In this document: positions 1-34,416 of the stretch, in pieces
How the letters are laid out: each line of letters opens with the position of its first letter
How positions within the stretch are numbered: position 1 is the stretch's first letter
From: Hyphomicrobiaceae bacterium
Lineage (GTDB): Bacteria > Pseudomonadota > Alphaproteobacteria > Rhizobiales > Hyphomicrobiaceae
Length of the DNA: 64,000 nucleotides
Assembly: GCA_022844275.1 (NCBI GenBank)
Contig: JALHMB010000002.1
Location: forward strand, 62,001 to 126,000
Direction of reading: 5' to 3'
The notes under the pieces: generated by a model
The model's database searches: none
What the model was told of the DNA's origin: nothing
Seen by the model: the letters and a program-made list of their open reading frames with translations, nothing else
Made by a program: the position numbers and the translations under genes

Positions 1-282
1 TCTGAGTTCGTATTGAGCACTCCTTCGGGTGAACGTCCCGCGTTAGAGGTGCTGACCGAAGGCAGTTATCATCGCGAATTCGTGGACGACCTCGACCGCT
101 GCGAGTACTTCGTCCCTATCGAGTGGCTCCAAACTGTGGACCTAAATGCAGGGGTGCAGGAGGTCGGCATGTTCGGAAACCAGAACACTGTCTGCAAGCC
201 CGCAACCCCGAAATGGCGACAGACCGTAGAGCGGTTGAAGCAGCGATTTCCAGACTTCGATAAGAGGGTTGTACGCGCTTAG
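1..282 (+). CDS. Hypothetical protein, C-terminal part
   Basis: The frame is open from base 1, so the gene probably starts left of the window; a TTG at 13 is the only plausible internal start seen and has no clear ribosome site. The visible ~93 residues end with a conserved-looking block containing GNQNTVCKP followed by a W-x-x-TVERLK-x-RF helix. I recognise this pattern from uncharacterised bacterial proteins but can name no function. It lies inside the tRNA-bounded element, upstream of two other hypothetical genes and a resolvase. Moderately sure that it is coding, unsure of everything else. Confidence 0.5.
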   Translation, partial: SEFVLSTPSGERPALEVLTEGSYHREFVDDLDRCEYFVPIEWLQTVDLNAGVQEVGMFGNQNTVCKPATPKWRQTVERLKQRFPDFDKRVVRA

Positions 283-2096: not shown

Positions 2097-2669
2097 CTAC
2101 CGCTGAGATGCCTTGGTTGAACCAGTCTCTTCGATGATGCGATAGATAGACATGCGCGACACTCCCAGCGCGCGCGCAACCGCCGCTGGCCCGTCACCCG
2201 ACCCAAGTCGAGCAAGGACGGCGCTCCGATCAATTCGCGGCTTTCCTCCCGTGTAGATGCCGGCCTTCTTGGCGCGGGCGATGCCTTCGGCCTGACGATC
2301 CCGGCGGACGTCGGTCTCGAACTGCGCAAAGACAGCTAGCATTCCGAAGAAAGCGCGCCCGGCTGATGTCGCGGTATCGACGCTCTGCTCCAGCACGCGA
2401 AGATGGGCGCCAGCCTCGTCTATCTCGTGGGCAATGTTGGCGAGATCCCGCAGCGACCGGCCGAGCCGGTCTAGGCGCGTGACGACCAAAGTATCGCCCC
2501 TGACTAGCACCTTGAGCGCAAGCTCAAGCTGCACCCTGCCAATCCGCTTGGTACCGCTTCGCTTATCCTCGAAGACGATCGCACATCCGTCCTGGTTGAG
2601 GGCTGACCTTTGTAGCGAGAGATCCTGGTCGTCGGTGCTGACGCGCGCGTAGCCGATCCGCCGGGCCAT
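2097..2669 (-). CDS. Serine recombinase / resolvase
   Basis: Small serine recombinase of the resolvase/invertase type, 190 residues from the ATG at 2669; the frame extends to 2708 but MARRIGYARVST is the usual start of the family. The nucleophile Ser lies in YARVSTDDQ near residue 10. The RLDRLGRS motif, with its catalytic Arg, is present near residue 65, and the middle has the FAQFETDVRRDRQAEG segment of the dimerisation helix. The C-terminus has a helix-turn-helix (AVARALGVSRMSIYRII). All catalytic motifs look intact. It could resolve a transposon cointegrate or invert DNA; no transposase gene is visible beside it. A res-like dyad lies directly upstream at 2713-2747. Confidence 0.9.
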   Translation of the reverse strand: MARRIGYARVSTDDQDLSLQRSALNQDGCAIVFEDKRSGTKRIGRVQLELALKVLVRGDTLVVTRLDRLGRSLRDLANIAHEIDEAGAHLRVLEQSVDTATSAGRAFFGMLAVFAQFETDVRRDRQAEGIARAKKAGIYTGGKPRIDRSAVLARLGSGDGPAAVARALGVSRMSIYRIIEETGSTKASQR

Positions 2670-3037
2670 GGGCATCTCCAATGTCACATCTGACTGTGCT
2701 TGTAACATAATACGTCACAATACTCCAAAAGCGACCCTGTTGTGACGCGGAAACGGCCCTGTTTGTAGTGTAACGAAAGGGTGTACGCTGGTGATGATGA
2801 GCCGAGCGGTCCCGCCGCGGATGGCGAATTACGCGCTTTCCGGTGCGTCAATGCTTCGGTGGCCGCGCGTCCTAAACGGATTGCCGGGGCACGACCACGG
2901 TTTGACCTAGTAGAATGTCTTAGCACCCAGAGGGTGCGCGGACCGATATATGATAATTGATTAGTCTGGTATGCGTGGCGCGGATTTTGAGGACGACATA
3001 CGAGCAAGTCCTGTGCATCACGGACAAGACGGCGCGT
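2670..3037. other. Intergenic region between resolvase and SDR gene
   Basis: No convincing gene. It holds the res-like dyad next to the resolvase start and a nearby partial copy (CCCTGTTTGTAG around 2757) of the sequence in the dyad spacer. An in-frame extension of the SDR frame back to 2957 exists but lacks family similarity. Confidence 0.5.
2713..2747. promoter_or_regulatory. Candidate res/operator dyad of the resolvase
   Basis: Perfect 8-base inverted arms CGTCACAA (2713-2720) and TTGTGACG (2740-2747) separated by 19 bases, giving a 35-base dyad 44 bases upstream of the resolvase start. Size and position match a resolvase-binding subsite, which in this family doubles as an autoregulatory operator. 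Inferred from position and symmetry only. Confidence 0.45.
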
Positions 3038-14066: not shown

Positions 14067-15575
14067 GTGGACCTTCTCGGTAACCTGTGGATCGGTCTCG
14101 AGACCGCCCTCACTCCATACAATCTCCTGTACTGCCTCGTTGGCGTCTTCTTCGGCACGGCAGTTGGTGTGCTTCCAGGTCTCGGCCCAGTCGCGACCAT
14201 TGCGATGTTGCTCCCGATCACGTTCGGCTTGCCGCCGGAATCCGCCCTGATCATGCTGGCCGGCATCTACTATGGTGCCCAGTACGGCGGTTCGACGACG
14301 GCGATCCTCGTAAATTTGCCCGGCGAGTCCTCATCCGTCGTCACGGCGTTGGATGGCTACCAAATGGCGCGCCAAGGCAATGCCGGACGCGCGCTCGCAA
14401 CGGCTGCGATCGGCTCATTCATTGCGGGTACGCTCGCAACAATCGTAATCATCTTCTTTGCGCCACCTCTCGCGAGCATCGCGCTAAAATTTGGGCCAGC
14501 GGAGTATTTCTCCCTGATGGTGCTCGGTCTCATCGGGTCCATCGTCCTCGCGCGCGGATCACTACTGCATGCGCTGGCCATGATTCTTCTCGGGTTGTTC
14601 CTCGGTTTGGTCGGAACCGATATCACCTCCGGAAGCGAGCGCTACACGTTCGACCTTCCAAAGCTCGCCGATGGCATTGACTTTGTGATCGTGGCCATGG
14701 GCATCTTTGGCGTCGGTGAGATCATCGCCAACCTCGAGAACGAATCGAAGCGCGAGCTAATAACAAAGCGCGTAACGGGACTGATGCCCACGCGCGAAGA
14801 TTGGCGCCGCATTAGATGGCCTATTCTGCGCGGTACGCTGCTTGGCTCGATCCTCGGTATCCTGCCGGGTGGCGGCGCCATGCTGGCGTCATTTGGTGCC
14901 TATTCGCTAGAGAAGAAGGTGTCGCCGAACTCTGCGGAGTTCGGTAAGGGAGCCATCGAGGGAGTTGCCGCTCCGGAAGCGGCCAACAATGCCGGTGCTC
15001 AGACGTCCTTTATTCCGATGCTGACGCTCGGTATTCCATCGAACCCCGTCATGGCTCTCATGATTGGTGCCATGATCATCCAAGGTATCCAGCCGGGGCC
15101 TTCGGTCATGACCGACCAGCCCTCACTTTTCTGGGGCCTCATCGTCTCGATGTGGGTCGGCAATCTGATGCTGCTGGCGTTGAACCTGCCTCTTATCGGT
15201 TTATGGGTGCGGATGATCTCCATCCCATACCATTTCCTCTTTCCGATGATCGTTGCGTTCTGTTCCATCGGCGTGTTCTCGCTGAGCAACTCGACTTTCG
15301 ACGTGTACTTGATGGCCATCTTCGGGTTGCTCGGCTACGTGTTCCGCAAGATCGATGCAGAGCCCGCACCTCTCCTTCTCGCCTTCGTCTTGGGGCCCAT
15401 GATGGAGGAGTTTCTTCGGCGTACGTTGCTTCTTTCGCGTGGTGATACGACGGTCTTCTTCACTCGGCCTATAAGCGCGATTATGCTCGGCGTGGCGGTC
15501 ATCCTGCTCATTATCGTACTGTTGCCCTCTATCCGAAAAAAGCGCGAAGAGGCGTTCGAGGAGGAGGCGGGCTGA
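14067..15575 (+). CDS. Tripartite tricarboxylate transporter permease TctA
   Basis: 502 residues with a GTG start. About eleven membrane segments. The family signature GVLPGLGPVATIAMLLPITFG occupies about residues 31-51 and YYGAQYGGSTTAIL follows; the second conserved half has GILPGGGAMLASFGAYSLEKK and GVAAPEAANNA. This is the large transport subunit, driven by an ion gradient. Its stop overlaps the start of the CoA-transferase by one base (TGATG), a sign of translational coupling between uptake and activation of the substrate. Confidence 0.95.
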   Translation: MDLLGNLWIGLETALTPYNLLYCLVGVFFGTAVGVLPGLGPVATIAMLLPITFGLPPESALIMLAGIYYGAQYGGSTTAILVNLPGESSSVVTALDGYQMARQGNAGRALATAAIGSFIAGTLATIVIIFFAPPLASIALKFGPAEYFSLMVLGLIGSIVLARGSLLHALAMILLGLFLGLVGTDITSGSERYTFDLPKLADGIDFVIVAMGIFGVGEIIANLENESKRELITKRVTGLMPTREDWRRIRWPILRGTLLGSILGILPGGGAMLASFGAYSLEKKVSPNSAEFGKGAIEGVAAPEAANNAGAQTSFIPMLTLGIPSNPVMALMIGAMIIQGIQPGPSVMTDQPSLFWGLIVSMWVGNLMLLALNLPLIGLWVRMISIPYHFLFPMIVAFCSIGVFSLSNSTFDVYLMAIFGLLGYVFRKIDAEPAPLLLAFVLGPMMEEFLRRTLLLSRGDTTVFFTRPISAIMLGVAVILLIIVLLPSIRKKREEAFEEEAG

Positions 15576-17737
15576 TGGCTGTGGATAGCAGCGCTGTACT
15601 CGACGGAACTCTGGTTCTCGAGTTTGGTGACCGGGTCGGCGCGTCAGTTTGCGGCTCGCTCCTGGCGCAGCTCGGCGCGACGGTAGTTTTTTTCGAGAGG
15701 ACCGAACCATCCGCTCCGGCTACGAAGTGGGCTTGTCGCGAGCAGTTCGCGGCCGGCAAGCTCAGCGTTTGCCTTAATCGCGACGCTGAAGCGGACAAAG
15801 CTCTCCTGGAGCGCCTTCTAGCACACGCAGATATCATGCTTGTGTCTCCAGATATCGATCCGATCGCGGTGCCGCGGCCTCCGCGTGCTGTTGTCTGCGA
15901 GATAACCGCCTACGGATCTACCGGGCCTGATGCCGGACGTGCCGATGACGAGTGTTTCATTCAGGCCCGGTCTGGCATTGTCGATACGACCGGAAATGCT
16001 GACGGCAAGCCGGTCCATGTCTCATTCCCTGTCGTTGAGTACCAAGCTGGCGCGTATGCCGCCGCTGCAGTTTTGGCCGCGCTGAGGAGTGCGCGACTCT
16101 CCGGTCTAGGCCAGACAGTTGAAGTTGCGCTTTACGATTGCGCATTCGCTTCCATGGCGACGTTCCTGCCGGGGCTACTGGCAGGGAGCAGCAGCACGGT
16201 CAACCGCATTGGTAATCGGCACGCTATGATTTCGCCTTGGAATGTTTTTCAGGCGAGCGACGGCTGGCTGCTGATCTGCGCCGGCAGCGATCAACAGTGG
16301 CTGCGGCTGACGCAGATTATGCAGCGCGACGACCTTGGAAGCGATTTGCGTCTAGCGCGCATCGCCGATCGCGTGCGCCACTCTGGCGAGGTCGATGCGT
16401 CCGTTCAGGCGTGGGCGGCTGGGAGGACAGTCGAGCAGTGCCTTGAGGTGCTCAACAAGGCTCAGATCGCGTGCGGGCCGGTCGTCGAAATCGAGCGGCA
16501 TCCCACAGAGCCGAACCTCGTCGAGCGCGGCATGATCTTGTCCGTGGTCGATCTTGCAACCGGTGAGGATTTGTTTGTGCCCGGCTCGCCGCTCAGTATG
16601 AGCAGAACCCCGGGGCGGGCACCACAGAGCATTCCGGCGCCTGACGGTGACAGGCGTGAGGTTGATCGTATCGCACTCGCGGCGGTGACGCCCGTTGAGA
16701 GTGTTGATGCAACACCGCAGCGTCCGCTGTCCGGCGTCAGAGTTGTCGAAATCGGCCACTACACAACGGTGCCGCTCTGCACCAAGCATCTCGGTGCGCT
16801 GGGAGCGGAAGTCATCAAGATTGAGCCGCCCGAAGGTGAGGCGACGCGCGAATGGCCTCCAGTTCAGGGGCGTCAGGGCTATTTCTTCACCTACATGAAC
16901 TCTGACAAGAAAAGCGTAACTCTTGATTTACGCACCGATGAAGGAGCGGATGCGCTCTGGAAACTCATCGAGAGCGCCGACGTCCTGATCGAGAACCTTA
17001 AACCTGGCGCGCTGGCCAAGCGCGGCTTCTCTTACGAGAAGCTGATAGAGCGCAATCCGCGCCTCATCTATGCTGGCGTATCAGGCTTCGGCGTGCGTTC
17101 GCTGTATCCGGGACGGCCAGCATTCGACACCGTCATTCAGGCAATGTCCGGAATTATGGATGTTGTGCGTTCCGATGGTGTGCCGATGAAAACGGGCATC
17201 TCGATCGCCGACCTCATGGGCGCCATTGTCGCGTGCGTTGCCGTTATCGCAGCGATCGTTCATCGCGATCGGAGCGGCTTCGGCCAGTCGATCGATCTAT
17301 CCATGCAGGACGTTGCAGCGTGGATGACACAGACTGCGTGGAACAGACGTGGAGCCACCGGACGCCAGCTTTGCGTGGTGCGATGCGCGGACGGACACGT
17401 TATTGCCGAGGGTGACCTGCCGCCCGATGTGTCGACGGACGGCATGACGCGTTCCGAGGCGGTGCCATACCTACGCGAGCGCGGCGTCACTGCATCGGCG
17501 GTGCTCTCAGTCCCCGAAATGCTGAGTCTTCCCCAGACCGTGGAACGCAGACTTTGGTTTAAGGCAGGCGGCGATGAGTTCGCGTGGCCGCTCCTCGATT
17601 GCCCGATGCGGCTTTCTCGGACACCTGCACGCGTAGAGCATCCAATGCCGGCTCTCGGTCGCGACAATTCGGCCGTTCTCGGCGCGCCGAGCTCTGCTGC
17701 ACCGAGATCAATGGCATCCTCCGAACGTAGTCTCTAG
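15575..17737 (+). CDS. Tandem-domain CaiB/BaiF (family III) CoA-transferase
   Basis: 720 residues, about twice the usual ~400. Residues ~1-370 form one CaiB/BaiF domain (ITAYGSTGPDAG, then GQTVEVALYDCAF) and ~385-720 a second, more canonical one starting LSGVRVVEIGHYTTVPLC with ADVLIENLKPGALAKRG, SGFG and GQSIDLSMQDVAAW. The nucleophilic Asp of family III enzymes is in the MQD/LYD position, and an Asp is present in both halves (LYDCAF and MQDVAAW). It should transfer CoA to the imported acid. Its one-base overlap with tctA ties it to uptake. The fusion could make a pseudo-heterodimer. Confidence 0.88.
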   Translation: MAVDSSAVLDGTLVLEFGDRVGASVCGSLLAQLGATVVFFERTEPSAPATKWACREQFAAGKLSVCLNRDAEADKALLERLLAHADIMLVSPDIDPIAVPRPPRAVVCEITAYGSTGPDAGRADDECFIQARSGIVDTTGNADGKPVHVSFPVVEYQAGAYAAAAVLAALRSARLSGLGQTVEVALYDCAFASMATFLPGLLAGSSSTVNRIGNRHAMISPWNVFQASDGWLLICAGSDQQWLRLTQIMQRDDLGSDLRLARIADRVRHSGEVDASVQAWAAGRTVEQCLEVLNKAQIACGPVVEIERHPTEPNLVERGMILSVVDLATGEDLFVPGSPLSMSRTPGRAPQSIPAPDGDRREVDRIALAAVTPVESVDATPQRPLSGVRVVEIGHYTTVPLCTKHLGALGAEVIKIEPPEGEATREWPPVQGRQGYFFTYMNSDKKSVTLDLRTDEGADALWKLIESADVLIENLKPGALAKRGFSYEKLIERNPRLIYAGVSGFGVRSLYPGRPAFDTVIQAMSGIMDVVRSDGVPMKTGISIADLMGAIVACVAVIAAIVHRDRSGFGQSIDLSMQDVAAWMTQTAWNRRGATGRQLCVVRCADGHVIAEGDLPPDVSTDGMTRSEAVPYLRERGVTASAVLSVPEMLSLPQTVERRLWFKAGGDEFAWPLLDCPMRLSRTPARVEHPMPALGRDNSAVLGAPSSAAPRSMASSERSL

Positions 17738-24121: not shown

Positions 24122-24721
24122 GCCATTCTCCTGGGCCTCTTCGAGGTTTTTTTGACGCTAAGCCAACGTTGGGGCAATCCGCGCCAAGATGTGCTAGCAG
24201 TTTTGGTCTCCGGATGAAGCCGACGGGCGCAGAACCGGCTGCCAACTAGTCATGCATGAAAATGCGTTGGACTGCTCGCATTCTGACTCGTCAGCTTGCC
24301 CCTTGAATCGGCATTGCCGATTTGCACATCACGAAGTCAGAACGAGCATTTCAATCGTTGAGTTTAGCCTTGCCTACGAATCTGGGGATCTATCGGTCCC
24401 AAGCTGTTAATCACAAGCTGCGCAACGCTTGGACCCACGCTCAGCAGACCCGTCGTCGTCCAAATGACATTGATCAATGGGACGGAATGAAGCATGTGGC
24501 GGGGATTGCATCTGCCGCTGATAGGCGGCAATAGCGCGCTACAACGTATGCATTGCGCGGGCGCTGCCACGCGATGGCCTCCGATCAAGATCGCATCCTC
24601 CAACAGATTGCGTGAGATTTGCGGGACGCTGTCCCGCACTGTGCTGAACCAAGGTGCAGATCCCGCAACGGACGCCCGCACAAGCTATTGATACACGTGG
24701 ATTTCTGCTTTCGCTTCCGTT
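24122..24721. other. Gene-poor end of the integrated element
   Basis: No convincing gene. A 105-codon open frame on the minus strand (24364-24681) shows no motif I recognise. A small imperfect dyad (GCGGGAC...GTCCCGC, about 24626-24637) is visible. The stretch separates the last catabolic gene from the tRNA scar; no integrase is encoded here. Confidence 0.5.
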
Positions 24722-24766
24722 CTCTTAATCAGCGGGTCGAAGGTTCGAGTCCTTCATCGCCCACCA
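24722..24766 (+). repeat. 3'-half fragment of tRNA-Lys(CTT), attachment-site scar
   Basis: The segment reads the 3' side of the anticodon loop (CTCTTAA), the 3' anticodon strand, a variable loop, a perfect T-arm (GAAGG-TTCGAGT-CCTTC), the 3' acceptor strand ATCGCCC and ACCA. The bases before 24722 do not pair with the 3' anticodon strand and no 5' acceptor strand, D-arm or GGGCGAT occurs upstream, so it is not a functional tRNA. It is the repeat left at the distal end when an element integrates into the anticodon-loop/T-arm region of a tRNA gene. Confidence 0.8.
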
Positions 24767-24872
24767 TTTTGATCAGTACGCTAGGTCTTTGTGTTTTCCG
24801 CCGTATCTCAGTATTGGCCGATAATTGGCTTACTGGGCACGCTCGACGTTGTTTTTCAATTTGAGCCGGGTC

Positions 24873-24898
24873 CCAGCCCCGAAGGAGTTCGGGGCTGG
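24873..24898. terminator. Strong stem-loop
   Basis: CCAGCCCCGAA (24873-24883), loop GGAG, TTCGGGGCTGG (24888-24898): 11 perfect pairs. No T-tract on either side. It separates the tRNA scar from the stress gene promoter and may insulate it. Confidence 0.45.
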
Positions 24899-24986
24899 CC
24901 ATGGTCGGGACCAGTTTTGAAGCAGGCATCGACGCCCGTATAAATCCGCTGCTTGGCGTCGTCCCGTAAGTTGAAGCGGCCGCAGT

Positions 24987-25011
24987 GGAACAGCACACCA
25001 AAGCCGACGTT
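24987..25011 (+). promoter_or_regulatory. EcfG-type general stress promoter
   Basis: GGAAC (24987-24991), 16-base spacer, CGTT (25008-25011): an exact match to the -35/-10 elements of the alphaproteobacterial general stress sigma factor, 46 bases before the start of the downstream general-stress-like protein. Confidence 0.7.
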
Positions 25012-25056
25012 TGGCCTCCAACACGCGCATTCTCAGGCCGACGAAGGACCCCCACT

Positions 25057-25539
25057 ATGGACACCAAAAAGCAGCTCTACGACGTAGTAAAAGGCTTTCG
25101 GGCCGCGATGCTGGTCACTTACGGCCGCGACGGCAATCTCAGCGCCCGACCGATGGCGGTCGCCGAGCTTGAGCCAGACTCGGACGCCTATTTCTCGACG
25201 AGCCTCACGTCGCCGAAGATCGCCGAGATCGAAGCCGACCCGAGAGCAATGGTTACGTTTCAGGGTGGATCGCAGTTCGCCACCATATTCGGCACGGTCG
25301 CCGTCGTGCGCGACCGTGCCCTCGTCGAGAGACTGTGGTCCGAGGATTGGCGATTGTGGTTTCCGAAGGGAAAGGATGATCCCACCCTCTGTCTGCTGAA
25401 ACTCTCCGCCGAGCGAGGAGAATACTGGGATACCAGCGGCCTGGAAGGCGTCAACTTCATGATTGAGAGCGTCAAGGCGCGTATTTCGGGTCGCTCGCCG
25501 GAAAAGACCGAAGCTCAGAATGCGAAGGTTCGCCTTTAG
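25057..25539 (+). CDS. Pyridoxamine 5'-phosphate oxidase-like general stress protein
   Basis: 160 residues from the ATG at 25057. FMN split-barrel fold: KGFRAAMLVTYGRDGNLSARPMAVAE near the start, then PKIAEIEADPRAMVTFQ and the GTVAVVRDRALVERLW segment, matching the general stress protein 26 branch rather than true PdxH. Such proteins bind flavin or a related cofactor; their reaction is mostly unknown. An EcfG-type promoter lies just upstream, consistent with stress control. First backbone gene to the right of the element border. Confidence 0.85.
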   Translation: MDTKKQLYDVVKGFRAAMLVTYGRDGNLSARPMAVAELEPDSDAYFSTSLTSPKIAEIEADPRAMVTFQGGSQFATIFGTVAVVRDRALVERLWSEDWRLWFPKGKDDPTLCLLKLSAERGEYWDTSGLEGVNFMIESVKARISGRSPEKTEAQNAKVRL

Positions 25540-25672
25540 GTGGGCTTTGGGCGGGGTGCGGTAGGCATCGCCCCGCTCTCGGCGGCGAAGTTTGCACGTG
25601 CCATTTCTCCTGAATTGGTACTGAACCATTGAGGGGGCGGCGCGTTCGCCTGTGAAAAGGAGGTGCCTGATC

Positions 25673-25957
25673 ATGGACACAGGCAGATCCGCGATCATCG
25701 ATGGTCCAAACAAGCCGGCTCGTCAGTCGTCCCTCGCAAACACCGGCGCGCAGTATGTGTACTTTTGCGTCAAAGGAGACGCGTTCAATGCGCAAATCCT
25801 GCGCATGGACGAAGAAGTCGATGGCTTTACGTGCAGGGTGCACGGTCGGCTGAAGTCCGGGCGCACCATCGGCGTGCCATTCCGTGGTGAATATAGCGTT
25901 GGAACCCGTTCCGGCTGGTTTGAATTCCACAGCGAAGGAGGAGCGAACAATGGCTAG
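25673..25957 (+). CDS. Small hypothetical protein
   Basis: 94 residues, preceded by a very strong ribosome site (AAAGGAGGTG). Rich in beta-type sequence with GAQYVYFCVKGDAFNAQILRM and a Gly/Arg-rich C-terminal half; no signal or membrane segment. Its last eight bases overlap the start of the small Cys-rich gene, so both are translated from one message. I do not recognise a family. Confidence 0.55.
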   Translation: MDTGRSAIIDGPNKPARQSSLANTGAQYVYFCVKGDAFNAQILRMDEEVDGFTCRVHGRLKSGRTIGVPFRGEYSVGTRSGWFEFHSEGGANNG

Positions 25958-26171
25958 GTGTGAAGTATGCGGTAATGACTACGAAAAGTCGTTCAAAATC
26001 GTCCAGGGCCAACGCGAAATGACCTTCGACAGCTTCGAATGCGCTGTCCATGCCATGGCACCACGCTGTGAGCATTGTGAGTGCCGCATCATCGGGCACG
26101 GGGTGGAAGCCGGAGGTAAACTATATTGCTGCGAGCATTGCGCCAAGCATGAGCGTGGCGATGCGCACTAA
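25950..26171 (+). CDS. Small zinc-binding protein, five CxxC-like motifs
   Basis: 73 residues with GAAGGAGGAG before the ATG. Cys/His pattern: CEVCG at the start, then CEHCECRIIGHG and CCEHCAKHERGDAH, which can fold as two treble-clef or LIM-like knuckles. Related to small Rhizobiales proteins annotated only as hypothetical. It overlaps both neighbours (eight bases upstream, eleven downstream), a tight translational chain with the DUF296 gene. A role in metal binding or as a DNA/protein adaptor is possible but unsupported. Confidence 0.65.
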   Translation: MARCEVCGNDYEKSFKIVQGQREMTFDSFECAVHAMAPRCEHCECRIIGHGVEAGGKLYCCEHCAKHERGDAH

Positions 26172-26613
26172 GCTGCTGCACGAGGCAGACGGAAAGCGCA
26201 CATTTGCGGTCGTCCTGAAAGCAGGCGACGAGGCCATGGCATGTTTGAAGGCGTTTGCGGCTTCTCAGAACATCGGAGGTGCGCAAATCACGGCGATCGG
26301 AGCTTTCAGCTCGGCTGAGCTCGCGTTCTTCGATTGGGAGAGCAAGAGATATATTCCCATAAAGGTCGATGAGCAGGTCGAAGTCGCCTCCCTCCTTGGC
26401 GACATCGCGCGAGATCCAGACGGCAAGCCTGCTGTCCACGTTCACGCTGTCCTGTCGGGTCGCTCCGGCGCGGCGCGTGCGGGGCATCTGAGCAAGGGTT
26501 ATGTGCGCCCTACTCTCGAAATCATAATTAACGAAACGCCTGCTCATTTGCAGAAGTCGCACGATCCCGAGAGCGGTCTTGCGCTCATAGAGCTCGGCCG
26601 AAGCAGCACCTAG
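26161..26613 (+). CDS. PPC/DUF296 domain protein
   Basis: 150 residues from the ATG at 26161, inside the end of the zinc-protein gene. The single domain shows FAVVLKAGDEAMACLKAFAASQNIGGA at the start, ITAIGAFSSAELAFFD and KPAVHVHAVLSGRSG, the core of the PPC (plant and prokaryote conserved) fold, which forms trimers. In bacteria it stands alone without an AT-hook and its function is unknown. The same gene pair in tight overlap suggests a shared task. Confidence 0.85.
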   Translation: MRTKLLHEADGKRTFAVVLKAGDEAMACLKAFAASQNIGGAQITAIGAFSSAELAFFDWESKRYIPIKVDEQVEVASLLGDIARDPDGKPAVHVHAVLSGRSGAARAGHLSKGYVRPTLEIIINETPAHLQKSHDPESGLALIELGRSST

Positions 26614-26644
26614 CTTGCGAGCTAGTCGGCCGTACGGAGAGATC

Positions 26645-26872
26645 ATGACACGCCGCACCGACGCCAAGCCACACCATCCTTACCCACAAGGTGGTCGTCC
26701 GAAAAAGGATGCGCCATCGGAGCCTGCCCCAAAGCCCGCGCGAAATGAAAAGAGCTGGTTGCCCGGCAGAAAAGGCCAGGGGGCGAGGGCCTCAGCAAGG
26801 GGTACGGCGGCAGTGGTGGCGATGGAACAGGTGCCTCCGGTCCTGAGGACAAGGACTAGACATCGCCGGTGA
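26645..26872 (+). CDS. Small basic Pro-rich hypothetical protein
   Basis: 75 residues from the ATG at 26645 with GGAGAG upstream. Highly basic and Pro/Lys/Arg/Ala rich (PHHPYPQGGRPKKDAPSEP near the start), so probably disordered. It follows the DUF296 gene by 31 bases in the same direction. Coding is plausible from the ribosome site and context only; it could be a chance frame. Confidence 0.35.
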   Translation: MTRRTDAKPHHPYPQGGRPKKDAPSEPAPKPARNEKSWLPGRKGQGARASARGTAAVVAMEQVPPVLRTRTRHRR

Positions 26873-26975
26873 GCATCGGATGCGGAGCGGAACGTAGCGC
26901 CGCCCGCGGACATGATTGCGCGAACCCAATGACCTGTTTTTCCTTAACTGCTTGCCGCGTTCCGTTCTCCCCAGC

Positions 26976-27001
26976 GGAACAAAACGACCGCTCCGATTGT
27001 T
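26976..27001 (+). promoter_or_regulatory. EcfG-like promoter within an inverted repeat
   Basis: GGAAC (26976-26980), 17-base spacer, TGTT (26998-27001), one mismatch from the CGTT consensus. The same bases form arms GCGGAACAA / TTGTTCCGC. It is 56 bases before the 24-codon gene. Confidence 0.4.
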
Positions 27002-27004
27002 CCG

Positions 27005-27034
27005 CGAACATCGTCACACGTCGACGGATGTTCG
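27005..27034. repeat. Inverted repeat upstream of small membrane protein gene
   Basis: CGAACATC (27005-27012) and GATGTTCG (27027-27034), perfect 8-base arms around 14 bases, in the probable 5' leader of the 27057 gene. Could be an operator or a leader stem-loop. Confidence 0.4.
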
Positions 27035-27056
27035 ACATGGAGTGGAGGATCGTTCA

Positions 27057-27131
27057 ATGGATGGCATCATTTACCTCGTTGGCTTGATCGTAGTCGTGAT
27101 GGCAATCCTTTCCGTCCTTGGCTTGAGGTGA
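27057..27131 (+). CDS. 24-residue single-span membrane peptide
   Basis: ATG at 27057 with GTGGAGGAT nine bases upstream; stop TGA at 27129. The peptide is one hydrophobic helix (IIYLVGLIVVVMAILSVLGL) after a Met-Asp-Gly start and ends in Arg. Proteins of this size and pattern recur in Rhizobiales. The stop overlaps the GTG codon of the next frame and lies five bases before its ATG, so translation is coupled. Likely stress induced, given the EcfG-like promoter. Function unknown. Confidence 0.6.
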   Translation: MDGIIYLVGLIVVVMAILSVLGLR

Positions 27132-27136
27132 GTGTC

Positions 27137-28036
27137 ATGACCACAGTCGTTGCACCCATCAAGACGAGTGGCGTTGACTGGAGCGCTGTCGTCGCCGGCG
27201 CCGTCGCCGCTGCTGCGATCTCCGGATTGCTTACTGCCTTCGGTGCCGCTATCGGGTTGTCTTTGACCTCCGCGCATCGCGACTCGGGCGTTTCAATAAC
27301 AACGTTGGCGATCGCGGCCGCCGTATGGATGGTGATGGTTCACGTCTGGAGTTTCACTGCCGGGGGCTATCTCGCAGGTCGGCTGTCGGACGTTCCTGAT
27401 CTCGATCCCCAAGAATCGCAGTTTCGCGCCGGCGCGAACGGCTTCATGGTCTGGGCGCTCGGGACGGCAGTGGGCCTCGTCTTTCTGGCGCTCGCGGCTG
27501 GCACGGCGGCGAGATCCACTGCGGATGTTGCTGGTAGTGCCGTTTCTGGTGTCGCTCAGGCGACATCAAACCTCTCTGCAGAAAATGTCTCGTACGTCGC
27601 AGATGCGCTATTCCGTGCGCAAGCGGCCCCTGGAGGTGCAGCGCCGCCGGCCGCGGCTCAGAACCGACCGGATCCGGCGCTGGTGGCCGAGGCCGGTCGC
27701 ATATTCGCTGTTGGGCTTGCCGAGGGATCGCTCAATGCAGGCGACCGCACCTACCTTGCGCAAGTTGTCTCGCGTCAGACCGGCCTGCCGGAAGCGGATG
27801 CGCAGCGGCGCGTAGACGAGAGCTATGCACGCGCAAAAGGCATGAAGGATGCCGCAGAGCAGCGCATGCGTGAGGCAGCGGACAAGGCACGCAAGCAAGC
27901 CGTAATCGCCGGCTTCCTCGCGGCAGCCGCATCGCTTGCCGGTCTCGTCGCTGCGGCTTGGGCAGCCGGCGTTGGTCGCGAGCATCAGAATACGCGAGAG
28001 TACCCGAGAATACTTGGATCTGAGCGCTTCTGGTAA
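27137..28036 (+). CDS. Multi-pass membrane protein of unknown function
   Basis: 299 residues. Hydrophobic segments at about 15-42, 56-76, 99-124 and 260-282; between the third and fourth is a ~130-residue soluble part with helices resembling repeats of AGRIFAVGLAEG and YARAKGMKDAAEQRMREAADKARKQA, probably coiled coil. Start at the ATG at 27137 rather than the overlapping GTG at 27128. Similar proteins are common in Rhizobiales without known role. Co-transcribed with the 24-residue peptide. Confidence 0.75.
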   Translation: MTTVVAPIKTSGVDWSAVVAGAVAAAAISGLLTAFGAAIGLSLTSAHRDSGVSITTLAIAAAVWMVMVHVWSFTAGGYLAGRLSDVPDLDPQESQFRAGANGFMVWALGTAVGLVFLALAAGTAARSTADVAGSAVSGVAQATSNLSAENVSYVADALFRAQAAPGGAAPPAAAQNRPDPALVAEAGRIFAVGLAEGSLNAGDRTYLAQVVSRQTGLPEADAQRRVDESYARAKGMKDAAEQRMREAADKARKQAVIAGFLAAAASLAGLVAAAWAAGVGREHQNTREYPRILGSERFW

Positions 28037-28056
28037 TTCAGACTTATTGTAACGAT

Positions 28057-28086
28057 GGCGAAGCGCCCACCCCGGCGCGCTTCGCC
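28057..28086 (+). terminator. Stem-loop after membrane protein gene
   Basis: GGCGAAGCGC (28057-28066) and GCGCTTCGCC (28077-28086), ten perfect pairs with a 10-base loop, 20 bases after the stop codon. No T-tract, but position and strength fit a terminator. Confidence 0.55.
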
Positions 28087-28225
28087 AATTCCATGTTGAT
28101 CTCGATCGCCAGCTTCCGACGGCCTCATTGCCCGCGCGTCGCGGTCGGGATAGCGTAAGCAGCGCCTGCTCGATTTTGCCAGCTGGCCGAGCAGCCTCGG
28201 TGCAATGCGATTGAAAGCATGGGAC

Positions 28226-28834
28226 ATGGCAACGCCCATACTCGTGATCGGCTTAGCGGTGGCGGGACTGCTGCTCTTGCTACTCCTTGCAACGTTGCTC
28301 AGCGGCACTTTCCGTATCTGGCCGACGCCGGGACCCGGCACGTGGCAGAGCCATGTGTTCTGGCCGCTCTTTCGCGGCCTTAATTTTCTGTGCTTTGTAA
28401 TGGCCGTGGTCGATACGGGCGGCTATCTTGGTCTGCCCATTTGGCTACGCGCCCTAGCGCTATTAGCGCTCGTCGCTTCCACCATGGTGTTCATCTACGC
28501 GTTTTACGTGCTAGGACGCGACAACAGTTACGGAGCGCGCGATGGGCTCGTCACCAGAGGCATCTATCGCTGGAGCCGCAACCCGCAGAACGCGATGCTC
28601 GTTGTGGTCTACGGATGCCTCGCAGTCGCGACGGACGGCGGCGGAACGTACCTTCTGTGCTCATCCATGATGGCGGTCTACGCGCTGATGGTGTTCTGCG
28701 AGGAGCCGTGGCTCGAAAGAATCTACGGCTCGTCATTTCGCCGCTATTGCTGCCAAGTGCCCCGCTTCATCAACCTGCGCCGAGTGCTGGTTTTCTTGCA
28801 GGTTAGCGCACGGCGCTGCGTATCGAGGGCCTAG
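28226..28834 (+). CDS. Isoprenylcysteine/phospholipid methyltransferase family membrane protein
   Basis: 202 residues from the ATG at 28226. Four or five membrane segments and a C-terminal half with GLVTRGIYRWSRNPQN, followed by EEPWLERIYGSSFRRYCCQVPRFI, the conserved cofactor-binding block (RNP...E...YG..Y..Y...VPRF) of the ICMT/PEMT-like membrane methyltransferases. In bacteria these methylate lipids or unknown small molecules; the acceptor cannot be told from sequence. Confidence 0.8.
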   Translation: MATPILVIGLAVAGLLLLLLLATLLSGTFRIWPTPGPGTWQSHVFWPLFRGLNFLCFVMAVVDTGGYLGLPIWLRALALLALVASTMVFIYAFYVLGRDNSYGARDGLVTRGIYRWSRNPQNAMLVVVYGCLAVATDGGGTYLLCSSMMAVYALMVFCEEPWLERIYGSSFRRYCCQVPRFINLRRVLVFLQVSARRCVSRA

Positions 28835-28893
28835 CGGTTGAGGTCGACGAGAATGGGACATCGTCACCCGCGCTTGTCGCATACAATCACGCC

Positions 28894-31137
28894 TCAATCA
28901 CGGCCACCAATATCGCACGTCAAACGTGGCCCGCCGCCGTGCGGTTGGTAGGTGCAGGTTGCAGCGTCGAACGAGCGAAACCGGCTCGCGCAGACGTCGA
29001 CGTTGCAGGATGACGTCGAGGCAGCGGACGCGCGCGTGATTGGAGGCGGAGCCATCATGATGCTCGTGCGCAGCTCGCACATACGCCTCGGTCCCGCGTA
29101 TGGTTGATACGTGCAGTCGGAAGCCCGGAACGAAGAGAAGGCTGCGGCGCAGGCCCTAGCGTCGCATTGGTGGGATGACGACCCATCCGCGAATTCCGGC
29201 TCTGACGATGCCTCGGTTGATACCGGCATTGGTCCGCTCGGCGCGCCGAGTTCGGGAGTGGCCGCACTCACGAACTCTCTCCAGATCGTCGCAGGCAGAG
29301 ATCCGCCCGTCACATGCTTCATCGGCGTTCCGTCATCGTTGCCCACCCAAACGCCCACGACGAGCTCTTTGCTGAAGCCCACAAACCACGCATCGCGATA
29401 GTCTTGGCTTGTACCGGTCTTACCAGCGGCAGAGCCATCCGCAAGGGATGCACCGCGCCCGGTGCCGGACGTGACAACGCGTTGGAGGAGCTTCGTCAGT
29501 TCTTGACCATGTGCGAGTTCCCTCGCCGGCCCAGACGGAGCCCCAACATGCCGCAAGCCACTCCCCTCGGGACCGAAGGCAGTGATACCCCATGCCTCAT
29601 GACGCGGGCGCCCGGCGCGGATGGATGCGAATGCCGTGGTGAGATCAAGCAGCGAGACCTCGTTGGCTCCGAGTGCCATGCTTGGCACCTCGGATAAGGG
29701 CGAGGTGAGGCCAAGTTCGCGCGCGGCGCTCACAACGTTGGAAAGTCCTACGTCGAGCGCCAGGCGGATTGCCGCGGTGTTTGCGGAGTGCGCAAAAGCG
29801 TCGGCGAGGGTCAGCTTGCTGAATACCTGGCCACCGTAGTTCTCGGGGCGCCATGACTTGATCGAGATCGGCGAGGCATCAATGACATCCTCTGCGCGGT
29901 AGCCCTGACGCAAGGCGGCATAGAACACGAACACCTTGAACGTCGAGCCTGGCTGCCGACGGGCGTCGACGGCCCGATTGAACTGGCTCGTGCTGTAGTC
30001 TCTGCCACCCACCATCGCGACTAAAGAGCCGTCAGGACGCAACGCGACCAAGGCTGCCTGAGAAGCACCGAGGCGCTTGCCATCGCTATCGAGATTGTGC
30101 GTGACGATACGTTCTGCAATGCCCTGTAGTTTTCTGTCGAGCGAAGTGCGGACTCGCATAGGTCGTGTCATCGTTCCCGCAACTTTCGGGAATTCGTGTC
30201 GCGCGATCCAATCGGAAAACCAACTTGCCGCAGGCTCCGTTCGGCTTGACGGACGAACCGTCGCCGGCTGGGCTTTTGCCGCGGACGCGCTCGTGCGGTC
30301 GATGAACTTCTCGTCGACCATGGCGTCGAGCACGAGTCCCGCTCGAACTCGCGCGGCTTCTGGGTTGGTGATCGGGTTGAAGCGCGTTGGCGCTTGAATG
30401 AGGCCAGCGAGCATGGCTGCTTCGGCAAGGTTGATGTCGCGCAGATCTTTATCGAAATAGTGTCGCGCAGCCGCGGACATTCCATAGACGCCGGCACCGA
30501 GGTAGACTGCATTCATGTAGCGCGTGAGGATTTGATCTTTGCTAAGCGTGGTTTCCAGCCACAGTGCCAGCAGTGCTTCCCGAAACTTCCTTCCGAGATT
30601 GCGGTCGTTGCCGACGAGCTGCAGCTTTGCAAGCTGCTGCGTGAGAGTACTGCCGCCCTCCACGATACCGCCGGCCGACCAGTTCGAATAGGTGGCGCGC
30701 GCTATCCCACGCAGGTCGACACCGAAATGGTTGAAGAACCGGCGATCCTCGATGCTGAGTACGGCTTTCACGAGGATGTCAGGTATAGCGGCGCGCGGCA
30801 CGGCATCCCCGAGTGAGCCGACGCGGCCCAGCGGGGTGGCGTCGGCCGCTTCGACGAGGATCGAAGGGGCGTCGGATGTCTCGCGAACTTTCAGAGGAAT
30901 TCCATTTAGAACCCAAAGCATGGCGCCGGCGCAGGCCAACACCACGACCATCGTAGTTAGCAATGTTATTCGAACGACGGGAAGTAACCGGCGAAGCCAG
31001 CCTCGAGGACGATGCGCGATGCGCATTGCATCTGCCGCAAGAGCGGCCGCGAACTGTTTGGCTGCGACCCTCGTTCCGACATTTGGCCCATCGGATCGGG
31101 CACCAACCGTCGACGACGTCTTCGGTGCGCTCATCAT
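28894..31137 (-). CDS. Class A penicillin-binding protein (PBP1 family) with BA14K-like C-terminal repeats
   Basis: 747 residues from the ATG at 31137; the frame continues to a TTG at 31218, so a longer start is possible. One membrane anchor at ~57-77. The GT51 glycosyltransferase domain has its catalytic Glu in IEDRRFFNHFG (~130) and GGSTLTQQLAK. The transpeptidase has GSTFK (Ser ~398), SAN and KTGTS. After the transpeptidase, residues ~658-687 and ~711-741 hold two repeats with C-x4-C-x11-C-x11/12-C, resembling BA14K domains. It polymerises and cross-links peptidoglycan in the periplasm. The Cys-rich tail is unusual. Confidence 0.93.
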   Translation of the reverse strand: MMSAPKTSSTVGARSDGPNVGTRVAAKQFAAALAADAMRIAHRPRGWLRRLLPVVRITLLTTMVVVLACAGAMLWVLNGIPLKVRETSDAPSILVEAADATPLGRVGSLGDAVPRAAIPDILVKAVLSIEDRRFFNHFGVDLRGIARATYSNWSAGGIVEGGSTLTQQLAKLQLVGNDRNLGRKFREALLALWLETTLSKDQILTRYMNAVYLGAGVYGMSAAARHYFDKDLRDINLAEAAMLAGLIQAPTRFNPITNPEAARVRAGLVLDAMVDEKFIDRTSASAAKAQPATVRPSSRTEPAASWFSDWIARHEFPKVAGTMTRPMRVRTSLDRKLQGIAERIVTHNLDSDGKRLGASQAALVALRPDGSLVAMVGGRDYSTSQFNRAVDARRQPGSTFKVFVFYAALRQGYRAEDVIDASPISIKSWRPENYGGQVFSKLTLADAFAHSANTAAIRLALDVGLSNVVSAARELGLTSPLSEVPSMALGANEVSLLDLTTAFASIRAGRPRHEAWGITAFGPEGSGLRHVGAPSGPARELAHGQELTKLLQRVVTSGTGRGASLADGSAAGKTGTSQDYRDAWFVGFSKELVVGVWVGNDDGTPMKHVTGGSLPATIWREFVSAATPELGAPSGPMPVSTEASSEPEFADGSSSHQCDARACAAAFSSFRASDCTYQPYAGPRRMCELRTSIMMAPPPITRASAASTSSCNVDVCASRFRSFDAATCTYQPHGGGPRLTCDIGGRD

Positions 31138-31524
31138 CTCATCCCGAAAAGCCGAACCGTGAAGCGGTGCACTCGAGGCCGTGGTGCGCGGCCTCTTTTG
31201 GGTCAGCTTCTGCGTCAACGTGAGACGCCCGGACTAGTTCCAAATCGGCGCTCACCTTGAAGCGCGGTTTGATAGGGCAGAAGAGGCGTCGAAGCGCCTC
31301 GGGGAACGGGGCCGAAAGCCGCTTGCAGCGCATGGCTTGCAGCACCGCCGCTTCCGCGCGTTTACTAGATCTCAACGTAGTCCTGTCGGGCGTACGAAAC
31401 AGTACGTATGCTGAAGTGGCTTACACTACGGATCGCGGTTAACGCAGACCCATGTCAGTGCATTCGCGTTGGGGGGGCCCACCAGTGAACTCTGGAGCCT
31501 TTTCATGCCCCCATTGCGTTTGCC
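31138..31524. other. Divergent intergenic region (PBP / GMC oxidoreductase)
   Basis: Includes the possible N-terminal extension of the PBP gene up to 31218. A short dyad CGTAC-N6-GTACG lies at 31391-31406. No gene seen. Promoters for both flanking genes are expected here but I cannot assign them. Confidence 0.4.
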
Positions 31525-33282
31525 ATGACCATCCTCGCGGATTTCCCCGCCGAGAGTGTTCCCTGCGATATCTGTATCGTCGGAACGGGGCCAGCCGGAC
31601 TCGCGCTGGCGCTCGAATGCGAGCGTCTCGGCCTCAAGGTGCTGGCACTGGAAGCTGGTGGCAAGAATCCTGGCAGTATTCCTAGATCAGAAGTCGAGAT
31701 TCTTTCGCCCAACCATCACGCGCCGCTACACATAACAACACGAAGCGCCTTTGGTGGAACGTCGTGGGGCTGGTCCGGGCTTTGCACACGTTTCGATGAC
31801 ATCGATTTCGCAGTGCGTCCGCATATAACAGACTCCGGATGGCCGATCCGACATAGTGAACTCGCACCGTACTACCAGCGTGCAGCAAGCCTCCTGAATT
31901 GCCGTATCGACGATGCATCGCCTGTCGACGAAAGCTGGCACACTCTCGAAGGTGTCACGCTTGACAATCGAGCCTACACGTCCGCGCAGCCTAGGCTTGG
32001 AGAAAGCCACTGGGAGTATGTCGCGCGATCGAAGGCCATCACCGTGTGTCTCAACACCGCGGTCGTCGGGCTGGATCTCGGCACCGATGGCCGGAAGGTC
32101 GAGGCCATTGCCGTCAACAGCCGCGGCCGCGCCATAACCTTGCACCCGCCGCGCGTCGCTCTCGCCGGCGGCGGTCTCCGAACCACACAGCTTCTGCTTG
32201 CGACGCAAAGGCACTGGCCGGACCATTTTGGCGGCGCCGATGGTATCCTCGGCCGCAACTACATGGGCCATTTGACCGGCTGGATCTCGTCCATCAGATT
32301 CAACAACCGAGCGGACGCCATTTACTTTAAACCATTTGCGGTCGAAGGTGCCAAGTCGGCCCAGCGGCGCTTCTTGATCTCGAGGCAAGTGCAGCTCTCC
32401 GAGCGCCTTCATAATATCGTGCTCTGGGCCGGTGCTCGCGCTCTCTATGATCCAACGCACGCCAATGGCCTTCTCTCGGCTGCTTATCTGGCATTGGCAG
32501 TTCCCGGGATCGGCTCGCTGTTCCTGTCGAGACCACTCCGCCGCGCCGCACTTGGCCCGAAGCCGCGGCACTACATGCCCCATGTCCAGAATGTTGGGCG
32601 CGCGCCGTTGCAAACCGCGTTGGATGCAATGCGCGCTGTGAGCGGAAAGGTGCGGGCGCAGCAGGCGATCGGCGAGCTGCTGCAGCAGGATGACAGCCTC
32701 GAGTATCTGCTCACCTATCATGCCGAAGCGGCGCCCAACAGGGAGAGCCGCGTGACCCTCGGCGAGGGAACGGACAGCTTCGGCTTGCCGCGCATGCGCA
32801 TCGATCTGCGCTTCTCCGACACGGACATCGCATCGACCGTGCGTGCGCACGAGGTGCTCGATCGGGCTCTGAGGAAGACCGGCAAGGCGCGGCTCGTGTA
32901 CCTGGATCCGCCAGAGGGCCGCGCCGCTCGCGTGCTCGAGCAGGCAACGGACGGCTATCATCAACTGGGCCTGACGCGCATGGGCACCGATCCGAGGCAG
33001 AGCATCGTCGATCCCGATTGCCGAGTACATGGCCTCGCCAATCTGTTCATCGCCTCCGGCAGCGTCTTTCCGACATCGGGTCAGGGGAATCCGACACTGC
33101 TCACGGCCGCGCTCGCCATTCGGCTGGCAGGCCATGTCGCCGCGTCGATGCACGAACTCCAGGCTCCGAGAGCCAAGGCCGCACTCGTCAGGCGACGCCC
33201 CAAGCTGAACCAGCCGCCGCGTGTGGAGCCGCCGATGGCTGCGCCAGTTAAATCCCGCGCAAAAACTCGAAGGCGGGCCTAG
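31525..33282 (+). CDS. GMC family FAD-dependent oxidoreductase
   Basis: 585 residues. The N-terminal FAD-binding motif is DICIVGTGPAGLALALE (about 15-31) with the AFGGTSWGWSG second flavin block near residue 75-85. The C-terminal catalytic region has YHQLGLTRMGTDP (His candidate) and SGQGNPTLLTAALAIRLA with the Asn that pairs with it. GMC enzymes oxidise alcohols, sugars or sterols. A ~35-residue basic Pro-rich tail follows the domain. No signal peptide. Stands alone; substrate unknown. Confidence 0.88.
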   Translation: MTILADFPAESVPCDICIVGTGPAGLALALECERLGLKVLALEAGGKNPGSIPRSEVEILSPNHHAPLHITTRSAFGGTSWGWSGLCTRFDDIDFAVRPHITDSGWPIRHSELAPYYQRAASLLNCRIDDASPVDESWHTLEGVTLDNRAYTSAQPRLGESHWEYVARSKAITVCLNTAVVGLDLGTDGRKVEAIAVNSRGRAITLHPPRVALAGGGLRTTQLLLATQRHWPDHFGGADGILGRNYMGHLTGWISSIRFNNRADAIYFKPFAVEGAKSAQRRFLISRQVQLSERLHNIVLWAGARALYDPTHANGLLSAAYLALAVPGIGSLFLSRPLRRAALGPKPRHYMPHVQNVGRAPLQTALDAMRAVSGKVRAQQAIGELLQQDDSLEYLLTYHAEAAPNRESRVTLGEGTDSFGLPRMRIDLRFSDTDIASTVRAHEVLDRALRKTGKARLVYLDPPEGRAARVLEQATDGYHQLGLTRMGTDPRQSIVDPDCRVHGLANLFIASGSVFPTSGQGNPTLLTAALAIRLAGHVAASMHELQAPRAKAALVRRRPKLNQPPRVEPPMAAPVKSRAKTRRRA

Positions 33283-33425
33283 TCCTCTCCTCCCTCCCGC
33301 CGGCCGAAGGCGCCGGGAACCCTCATCGGCTAAGTCCGTTCTGCACTCACACAGCTCGTAGGGCTCGATCGCCGATGTCCTGTGGGAGTTCCGCGACGCT
33401 CTGTTTTCTCTCTAGGAAGCCGACC

Positions 33426-33722
33426 ATGACTATCAAGATGACCGCTCTGGCTGCTGCCGCTGTGGTGGGCGGCTTCGCCATTTCAGTCGGAACCTCACGG
33501 GATGCCGACGCTCAGTCGCGTCGGGGTGCTGTCGGCTACGTACAGACCTGCAGCCAATACGGTAACGGCTGCACGAAGGCGCCGGTGCGCAGGGGGCGGA
33601 ATGGCTATGAATTCCGAATGCCAGGCGGCACCTGGATCAGGTGCCGAGGAAGTTGCCGGAATTCGCTGCGCGAGGATTCCGTTGATTTCTGGGAGACGCA
33701 GCGTGAGAACCAGCGGGACTAG
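33426..33722 (+). CDS. Small secreted hypothetical protein
   Basis: 98 residues from the ATG at 33426. A signal peptide (TIKMTALAAAAVVGGFAISVG, cleavage likely after ADAQ or nearby) precedes a mature part of ~65 residues with four Cys (QTCSQYGNGCT, RCRGSC), probably two disulfides. Rich in Arg and Gly. Periplasmic or outer-membrane associated. Similar small Cys-containing exported proteins occur in Rhizobiales; no function known. Confidence 0.65.
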   Translation: MTIKMTALAAAAVVGGFAISVGTSRDADAQSRRGAVGYVQTCSQYGNGCTKAPVRRGRNGYEFRMPGGTWIRCRGSCRNSLREDSVDFWETQRENQRD

Positions 33723-33913
33723 TGAGGCTCGGCCGCTTGCAGGACAAGCTGCCGACTGCCAGTCTCGTCGTCAGCGGGCCAAAGTTTCGAGTCCTCTATT
33801 GACCGCCATCACTTCAATGCCGTAGCCGCCGAGGAGAAAGCTGCTCTGCTGCCGGACAGCGCCTGGGCTATAGAGCGACTGTCCGACCGCCTTCGACCAA
33901 CGGAGTTCGAGGA

Positions 33914-34315
33914 ATGGCCACCCCATCGCTGGTAGGGACCTGGGCGCTGGTCCGCGGGATATGTACGGCCGCTGACGGTACACCCCGGCCGGTGCCGTAC
34001 GGACCCATGGGTATGGGGCGGGTTTCGTTCTCGGCCGACGGCCGAATGATCGCGGTCGTTTGCGACAGCCGACCTGAGTTGCCGGCCGACACGCCACGCG
34101 AATACAACTCGTACTGCGGCACCTACACTTTCGACGGCCAGCGGCTCGTGACGAAGGTGTTCGCCAATTCTGATCCCGGCCGATTGAGTGGCGATCAAGT
34201 GCGCGACATCAGCTTCGAGGGGAATTACCTCGTGATGCGACCGCCGCCACGCTCCGTTCCCGGCAAACCCGCCGAGCAACGAGAAATCTGGTGGGAGAAG
34301 ATTGCGGACATCTAA
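33914..34315 (+). CDS. Lipocalin-like domain protein
   Basis: 133 residues. The pattern LVGTWALVRG at the start, GRVSFSADGRMIAVV, YCGTYTFDGQRLVTKV and the C-terminal IWWEKI is that of lipocalin_5-like domains, where the G-x-W near the N-terminus and a beta-barrel of alternating hydrophobic residues are usual. No signal peptide. May bind a small hydrophobic ligand. Function not known. Confidence 0.7.
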   Translation: MATPSLVGTWALVRGICTAADGTPRPVPYGPMGMGRVSFSADGRMIAVVCDSRPELPADTPREYNSYCGTYTFDGQRLVTKVFANSDPGRLSGDQVRDISFEGNYLVMRPPPRSVPGKPAEQREIWWEKIADI

Positions 34316-34416
34316 TCGGCTGCCGACACAGGCGTGCATCGAGTCTTCACGAACGCGCAGAATTTCGCTGTGGATGCCTCGAATCAATTCGAGCCGGATG
34401 GGTCAGCAGAGACCCG

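Follow-up and report, generated by a model that had tools for sequence, protein, structure and literature searches.

The stretch of DNA analysed here (the window; 64,000 nucleotides, C2:62001-126000 of a 6.08-Mb genome in 24 contigs) carries at positions 24722–24766, on the plus strand, 45 bases that are identical to nt 32–76 of tRNA-Lys(CTT). The identity runs from the first base of the anticodon loop, nt 32 (ARAGORN places the anticodon at 34), to the CCA, so that the initial annotation, which had recognised here a tRNA-Lys(CTT) 3' half beginning in the anticodon loop, was right. ARAGORN detects no intact tRNA in the window, an Rfam search of the window at the gathering score gave no match, no second match to the 45 bases at up to 3 mismatches is present in the window, and a match occurred in 0/100 dinucleotide shuffles. 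The whole genome has exactly two occurrences of the 45-mer, C2:60359-60403 and C2:86722-86766, each on the plus strand, and a whole-genome scan gave no third copy at up to 3 mismatches. The former copy makes up the 3' portion of a complete tRNA-Lys(CTT) gene at G000:C2:60328-60403 (+), which lies 26.4 kb to the left of the fragment in the same orientation and includes the left att core (L003:16328-16403; window positions are L003 positions minus 18000). By its exact repetition, its uniqueness and its start at nt 32, the fragment at 24722–24766 is the displaced 3' half of this gene, that is, the right att core and the right boundary of the element.

The initial annotation had predicted an intact tRNA to the left of the window and an adjacent integrase, and an integrase gene does adjoin the tRNA on the element side. 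It encodes a tyrosine integrase of 390 aa (L003:16417-17589, minus strand; PF00589, E 1.9e-16; phrog_1, 1.2e-39), runs toward the tRNA and has its stop codon 13 nt from it. A 13-bp arm-like site, ATCAAGAACTTAG (L003:16408-16420), lies 4 nt after the CCA and overlaps this stop codon. Beside the integrase, an ORF at L003:17551-18282 (+), the end of which occupies window positions 1–282, matches PDC-S11, a candidate defence protein, over its C-terminal two thirds (PADLOC PDLC04916, E 3.6e-96, profile positions 126–355 of 358); it has no Pfam family, its 5' part is missing, and it looks like a defence gene that lost this part at the integrase end of the island. Two ORFs without a family in profile searches follow (418-1257 and 1345-1938, together 418–1938, +), then a serine resolvase/invertase gene (2097–2708, minus strand; PF00239, 7.9e-38) and a cluster of 19 catabolic genes (2957–24121). 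The right arm-like site, ACAAGCTATTGAT (24680–24692, +), is inverted relative to the left one and ends 29 nt before the core. No integrase had been noticed near this end, and a genome-wide PF00589 search indeed gives no match anywhere in the window.

Counted from the first base past the tRNA through the last base of the fragment, the element spans 26,363 bp, taking in window positions 1–24721, which had been assigned to it, and a further 1,597 bp to the left of the window. Its GC content is 59.6%, vs. 63.4% in the 16 kb left of the tRNA, where the DNA is conserved (72–76% identical) in the same-genus genomes G002, G003 and G004. Pfam families are found in 21 of the 24 element proteins; relaxase or type IV secretion families are absent from all 24, as are structural, packaging and lysis families (with PHROGs on 5/24). 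Insertion at tRNA genes by integrases is a textbook mechanism of ordinary bacterial gene gain, and two marks of such an island are present, namely a tRNA and a fragment in the same orientation on one replicon, and an integrase inside, near one end. Given the exact 45-bp repeat, the integrase beside the intact tRNA and the orientation, the earlier call holds, and we are close to certain that a genomic island of 26,363 bp occupies the interval, having entered the 3' half of tRNA-Lys(CTT) by means of its own tyrosine integrase. It is a member of the anticodon-loop class, mapped to the base, and a further case of an already known type of island. In the accessible text on the Islander collection, 3,760 of 3,919 islands have a 3' fragment and 2,083 an anticodon-centred site (PMC4383910). 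The present island shares with these the intact tRNA, the displaced 3' fragment in the same orientation and the integrase between them, and we see no essential difference from what that text describes, the present one having a catabolic cluster and readable arm-like sites (PMC4383910).

Catabolic cargo and its copy in a sister species

The 19 genes of the cluster are catabolic, transport and regulatory genes. They encode an SDR, an acyl-CoA dehydrogenase, an enoyl-CoA hydratase, an MBL hydrolase, an MmgE/PrpD protein, a CMD protein, a HIBADH-like protein, a LysR regulator and a second MmgE/PrpD protein, as well as TctC, TctB, TctA, a 720-aa double CoA-transferase III, an OYE, two IclR regulators, a further CoA-transferase III, an HpcH/HpaI lyase and a muconate-cycloisomerase-like enzyme. 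Their location inside the element, bounded by the two cores, supports the proposal that the CoA-catabolism genes are cargo. At E <= 1e-80, the double CoA-transferase is found in 5 of 99 family genomes, own included. Class III CoA-transferase sequence occurs more than once in the 720-aa protein (window 15575–17737): in the best PDB and Pfam matches, residues 380–600 pair with the N-terminal half of the family, and residues 103–322 match a later part of the family.

For 10 element proteins compared with NCBIfam, no family among the matches listed reaches its cut-off (for the SDR, these are the best 25 of 232), and the cluster lyase scores 90 bits, vs. a RipC cut-off of 375. Judging from the available part of a study on itaconate and methylsuccinate clusters, these bring together a CoA-transferase, an acyl-CoA dehydrogenase, MmgE/PrpD and a CitE-type lyase, and in Cupriavidus necator a TctC-type gene lies close to such a cluster (PMC12290011). 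The present cluster is like them in having TctCBA, CoA-transferases, MmgE/PrpD, an acyl-CoA dehydrogenase, a hydratase, an SDR and a CitE-like lyase, but is larger than the clusters in that part of the study, with the double CoA-transferase, the OYE, the MLE-like enzyme and the SDR (PMC12290011). As a guess from the protein families, the cargo probably serves to take up, through TctCBA, a dicarboxylic acid that is small and perhaps branched, and to degrade it in a CoA-dependent way.

In the sister species G003 all 19 genes are colinear at 79–80% DNA identity, with window positions 2963–24138 corresponding to C2 about 2537576–2516052 of that genome. A tRNA-Arg(CCT) lies 124 bp from the end of the homology, and beyond this boundary the G003 DNA matches contig C6 of the present genome exactly up to the 3' end of tRNA-Arg(CCT); on the other side (2511900-2516000) matches in the present genome are weak. 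With this colinear copy, the cluster is present at two places in the genus, each next to a tRNA gene. The nearest PF00589 match on the G003 contig is 0.58 Mb away, and apart from a 13-base match inside the cluster there is no tRNA-Arg 3' half in the 80 kb from 2490001 to 2570000; at most, the G003 copy may have come as an island.

Integrase relatives, arm-like sites and the probable course of the insertion

A scan of the genome collection returned 19 relatives of the integrase, one of which (29% identity) was dropped, leaving 18 at 56–79% identity. An intact tRNA lies on the opposite strand, at most about 410 nt past the matched end, for 11 of the 18 (Lys 4, Phe 5, Met 2); at L064 and L080 the contig ends past the integrase. 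Of 13 relatives' genomes probed with tRNA-Lys(TTT), two have a tRNA-Lys half on the contig and strand of the tRNA itself: in Sedimenticola (G082) it lies at a distance of 155 kb and begins with nt 32, in Thiodiazotropha (G081) at 35 kb and with nt 31. The integrases of these two sister islands are 70–71% identical to the present one, and in both the displaced half and the working tRNA differ by paired T-stem changes (judged by eye), which would fit two sources of the tRNA half. By eye, integrases beside tRNA-Lys were also seen in the relatives' loci L019, L024 and L031, where a regex search gave the present one only; that of L019 has 61 aa left at a contig end and is 80% identical, and those of L024 and L031 are other recombinases. 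Tyrosine recombinases usually have an HxxR motif with the second catalytic Arg. The present integrase has HDLKH, with Lys at this position, as do 13 of 14 readable relatives and all three phage relatives (L071 has Arg), and because the Lys is common to most relatives it is probably not inactivating.

Past the CCA of many integrase loci we found the consensus WTCAANNNSTTAS. A weight matrix was made from ten left arms, none from the present genome, and run on both strands of 82 kb of that genome (163,976 positions). Its top position is the left arm of the present element, at 17.7 bits; the right arm ranks 7 at 12.2 bits. The right arms of the two sister islands lie 30 and 29 nt before their cores and score 19.8 and 17.7 bits, the left arms of these islands being part of the matrix and the right arms outside it, so that the right arm of the present element is the weakest of the three. 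Four loci with a readable integrase end (L071, L076, L078 and L081) were left out of the matrix because they fit poorly by eye, and the arm model is selected to that extent. At L096 (G026:C10:1-2100), only 1.7 kb separates a tRNA-Lys from a 3' half; the left arm is clear and the right one weak (8.0 bits), no integrase was recognised there by eye, and the locus looks like a tiny leftover element.

The closest phage integrases, those of phiPSA1 and SC_8_H2H8_2017 (Pseudomonas) and CF418P1 (Achromobacter), are 46–47% identical over 88–90% of the protein. These phages share with the present element the HDLKHTFGRRLRAA motif, tRNA 3' sequence at the integrase end and arm-like 13-mers, whereas the elements are phages and their tRNA, by eye, resembles tRNA-Pro. 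Of the two arms, each phage has one: phiPSA1 combines a tRNA-Pro-like half with a left arm and has no right arm upstream of the core (4.7 bits), CF418P1 combines such a half with a right arm at 27 nt, and SC_8_H2H8_2017 has a left arm after an apparently whole tRNA. By phage locus, an upstream right arm is absent at L118 and L119, and a left arm at L120.

Directly readable from the DNA are both att cores, the integrase gene, the arm-like sites and the genes carried, as well as the corresponding layout in two other bacteria; from this arrangement we infer the direction of the event, binding of the arm-like sites by the integrase and a former capacity of the island to excise as a circle. Strand exchange would have taken place in or next to the anticodon loop of tRNA-Lys(CTT). 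A copy of nt 32–76 borne by the element would then have restored the tRNA on the left side, and the original 3' half of the host would have been displaced to 24722–24766, where it now forms the boundary on the right. The integrase probably bridges the tRNA core to the inverted 13-bp arm sites at both ends.

Whether the whole interval moved as one unit is less certain. The integrase end and the catabolic cluster could have come separately, e.g. with the resolvase or by recombination, only part of the interval having moved as a unit, a history that is compatible with the island reading at both ends. Such a composite is favoured by the candidate defence gene without its 5' part beside the integrase, by the resolvase between this gene and the cluster, and by the sister-species homology, which stops short of the att cores at 2963–24138. 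However, GC is equal in both parts (59.9% and 59.6%), and a single pair of att cores and a single pair of arm-like sites enclose both; we regard a composite origin as possible, but on balance somewhat doubtful. The kinship of the integrase with those of the three phages could also point to the remains of a prophage instead of an island, a reading that is very unlikely in view of Pfam families for 21/24 proteins, with no capsid, terminase or tail (PHROGs on 5/24). Finally, tRNA fragments do arise in other ways, e.g. as a CRISPR spacer in the accessible part of one report (PMC9897764), and the 45 bases could in principle be a chance or duplicated tRNA piece that came about without integration. 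Against this stand the integrase, the orientation, the start at nt 32, the arm-like sites, the sister islands and the lack of any match in the 100 shuffles, which together reduce its probability to almost nothing.

DNA beyond the fragment and apparent reuse of tRNA genes in the family

The tRNA-Lys query matched 79 relatives and the present genome at E <= 0.001, some of them weakly and perhaps at other tRNAs. Among 30 tRNA loci examined, one of them the present one, the sequence right of 24766 follows the tRNA in 0/29 other loci. The comparison with a strain lacking positions 1–24721, suggested in the initial annotation, could be made in part: four other same-genus genomes yielded no empty site, and the right side of tRNA-Lys is readable in two of them (G002 and G003), both with other DNA. 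In G004 the contig continues for only 4 kb past the tRNA, and G001 is without a full-length match. Compared with 12 genomes, the right flank (24767–34400) gives scattered matches. A gene at 33914–34315 has an 83% counterpart in G002, 14 kb right of tRNA-Lys and in the same orientation, and a block of G004 contig 56, a contig with no tRNA-Lys piece, matches roughly 25000–26600. Farther right lie a gene at 62401 and one at 63262, which we take by eye to be GST-like and enoyl-ACP-reductase-like, respectively. The distance from tRNA-Lys to the counterpart of the 63262 gene is 18 kb in G002 and 30 kb in G003, vs. 65 kb here, and the 62401 gene precedes it in G003 too; between tRNA-Lys and the 63262 gene little matches, except the 33914–34315 gene in G002. 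The fragment stands as the right boundary of the element, but if stable chromosome was thought to begin beyond it, the comparison speaks against this, as most of 24767–~62400 differs among species of the genus. The variable stretch at 34417–61628 contains a second TctA/TctC pair, ABC transporter genes, PhnI and a glycosyltransferase gene, and its matches to the tRNA-Lys regions of G002 and G003 are weak and mostly ABC-type.

Outside the element, 33771–33825 (+) is plausibly the decayed scar of an older insertion. Its first 25 nt (33771–33795) correspond to tRNA-Lys nt 39–63 with 3 mismatches and give a score of 16, whereas 60 Markov controls reach 13 at most. Behind them, 33813–33825 is an arm-like 13-mer, with 10.4 bits by the matrix and 8/11 letters in a simpler count, a value reached by 63 of 1,487 window stretches; the support comes mainly from the tRNA match, the Markov controls and the matrix, the simpler letter count being unremarkable. 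Mean GC differs on the two sides (61.1% in 24767–33770, 64.1% in 33827–62400), with no sharp step there in the 2-kb profile, and the genome-wide PF00589 search places no match inside the window. We claim no older arm right of 24767, because the flank there scores 7/11 letters, which is ordinary for the window.

Within the family, the 25 nt after tRNA-Lys(CTT) reach at least 10 bits in 11 of the 29 relatives (own locus excluded), vs. 0 of 1,484 control 25-mers, the controls being other 25-mers of the same loci and not other tRNA genes. The pattern CCACCA plus 3–7 nt plus arm has 55 matches in 43 of 99 family genomes (own included), vs. 4 for the reversed pattern. The two counts are not wholly independent, since the motif had first come to notice in some of the 29 loci, and the 29 and the 55 overlap in part. 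When 30 of the 55 matches were examined, an intact tRNA (Lys, Ala, Met or Val) was found before 17 and a half tRNA, starting at about the anticodon loop (calls by eye), before 7; three have a partial or contig-edge piece (L124, L134 and L145) and three are without a tRNA (L126, L133 and L148). A clear integrase of the family lies within 1.5 kb on each side at 2 of the 30 (the present locus and one cut by a contig end), and L135, L143 and L146 have weak partial integrase matches. Given the 55 vs. 4 matches, and the intact and half tRNAs before the arms, such tRNA sites look repeatedly used, and the half-plus-arm junctions would be the expected trace of stacked insertions.

Work by Williams (2002) is said to concern tRNA sublocations. 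In tandem arrays, the Islander rule, as given in the accessible text, is that each island has its own tRNA fragment and integrase (PMC4383910). As far as the available text goes, the ssrA islands of Dehalococcoides, in which one RNA gene is reused by tandem islands, are similar to the present case in their catabolic cargo, the reuse of one RNA gene (apparent in the present case), leftover direct repeats and integrase module at the left edge; they differ in using a serine recombinase and a site in the tmRNA T-loop, whereas the present island has a tyrosine integrase and a tRNA anticodon-loop site (PMC3146451). The part of PMC11476347 at hand has nothing on tRNA-Lys(CTT), and at the title and abstract level of a literature whose subscription journals were largely beyond reach, we found no description of this arm motif or of this cluster on an island.

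Taken jointly, these observations lead to a wider reading to which we give even chances. CCA plus the 13-bp arm would be a durable scar that outlasts both island and integrase, and tRNA-Lys(CTT), tRNA-Ala(CGC), tRNA-Met and tRNA-Val would have been struck repeatedly in the family, with new islands pushing older half-tRNA-plus-arm scars outward. The window would then hold two such layers (24722 and 33771), and large catabolic clusters would move between tRNA sites on such elements. The island itself matters because a whole 19-gene catabolic cluster is its cargo, its ends are exact to the base, and a sister species has a copy of the cluster at a different tRNA. For future work, the arm-like scar and the reuse of the same tRNA genes are the parts worth pursuing. 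If the arm motif is indeed the footprint of the integrase, it would provide a simple sequence test for past insertions from which no integrase remains, and one could tally, over a whole bacterial family, how often tRNA genes have been the site of gene gain.
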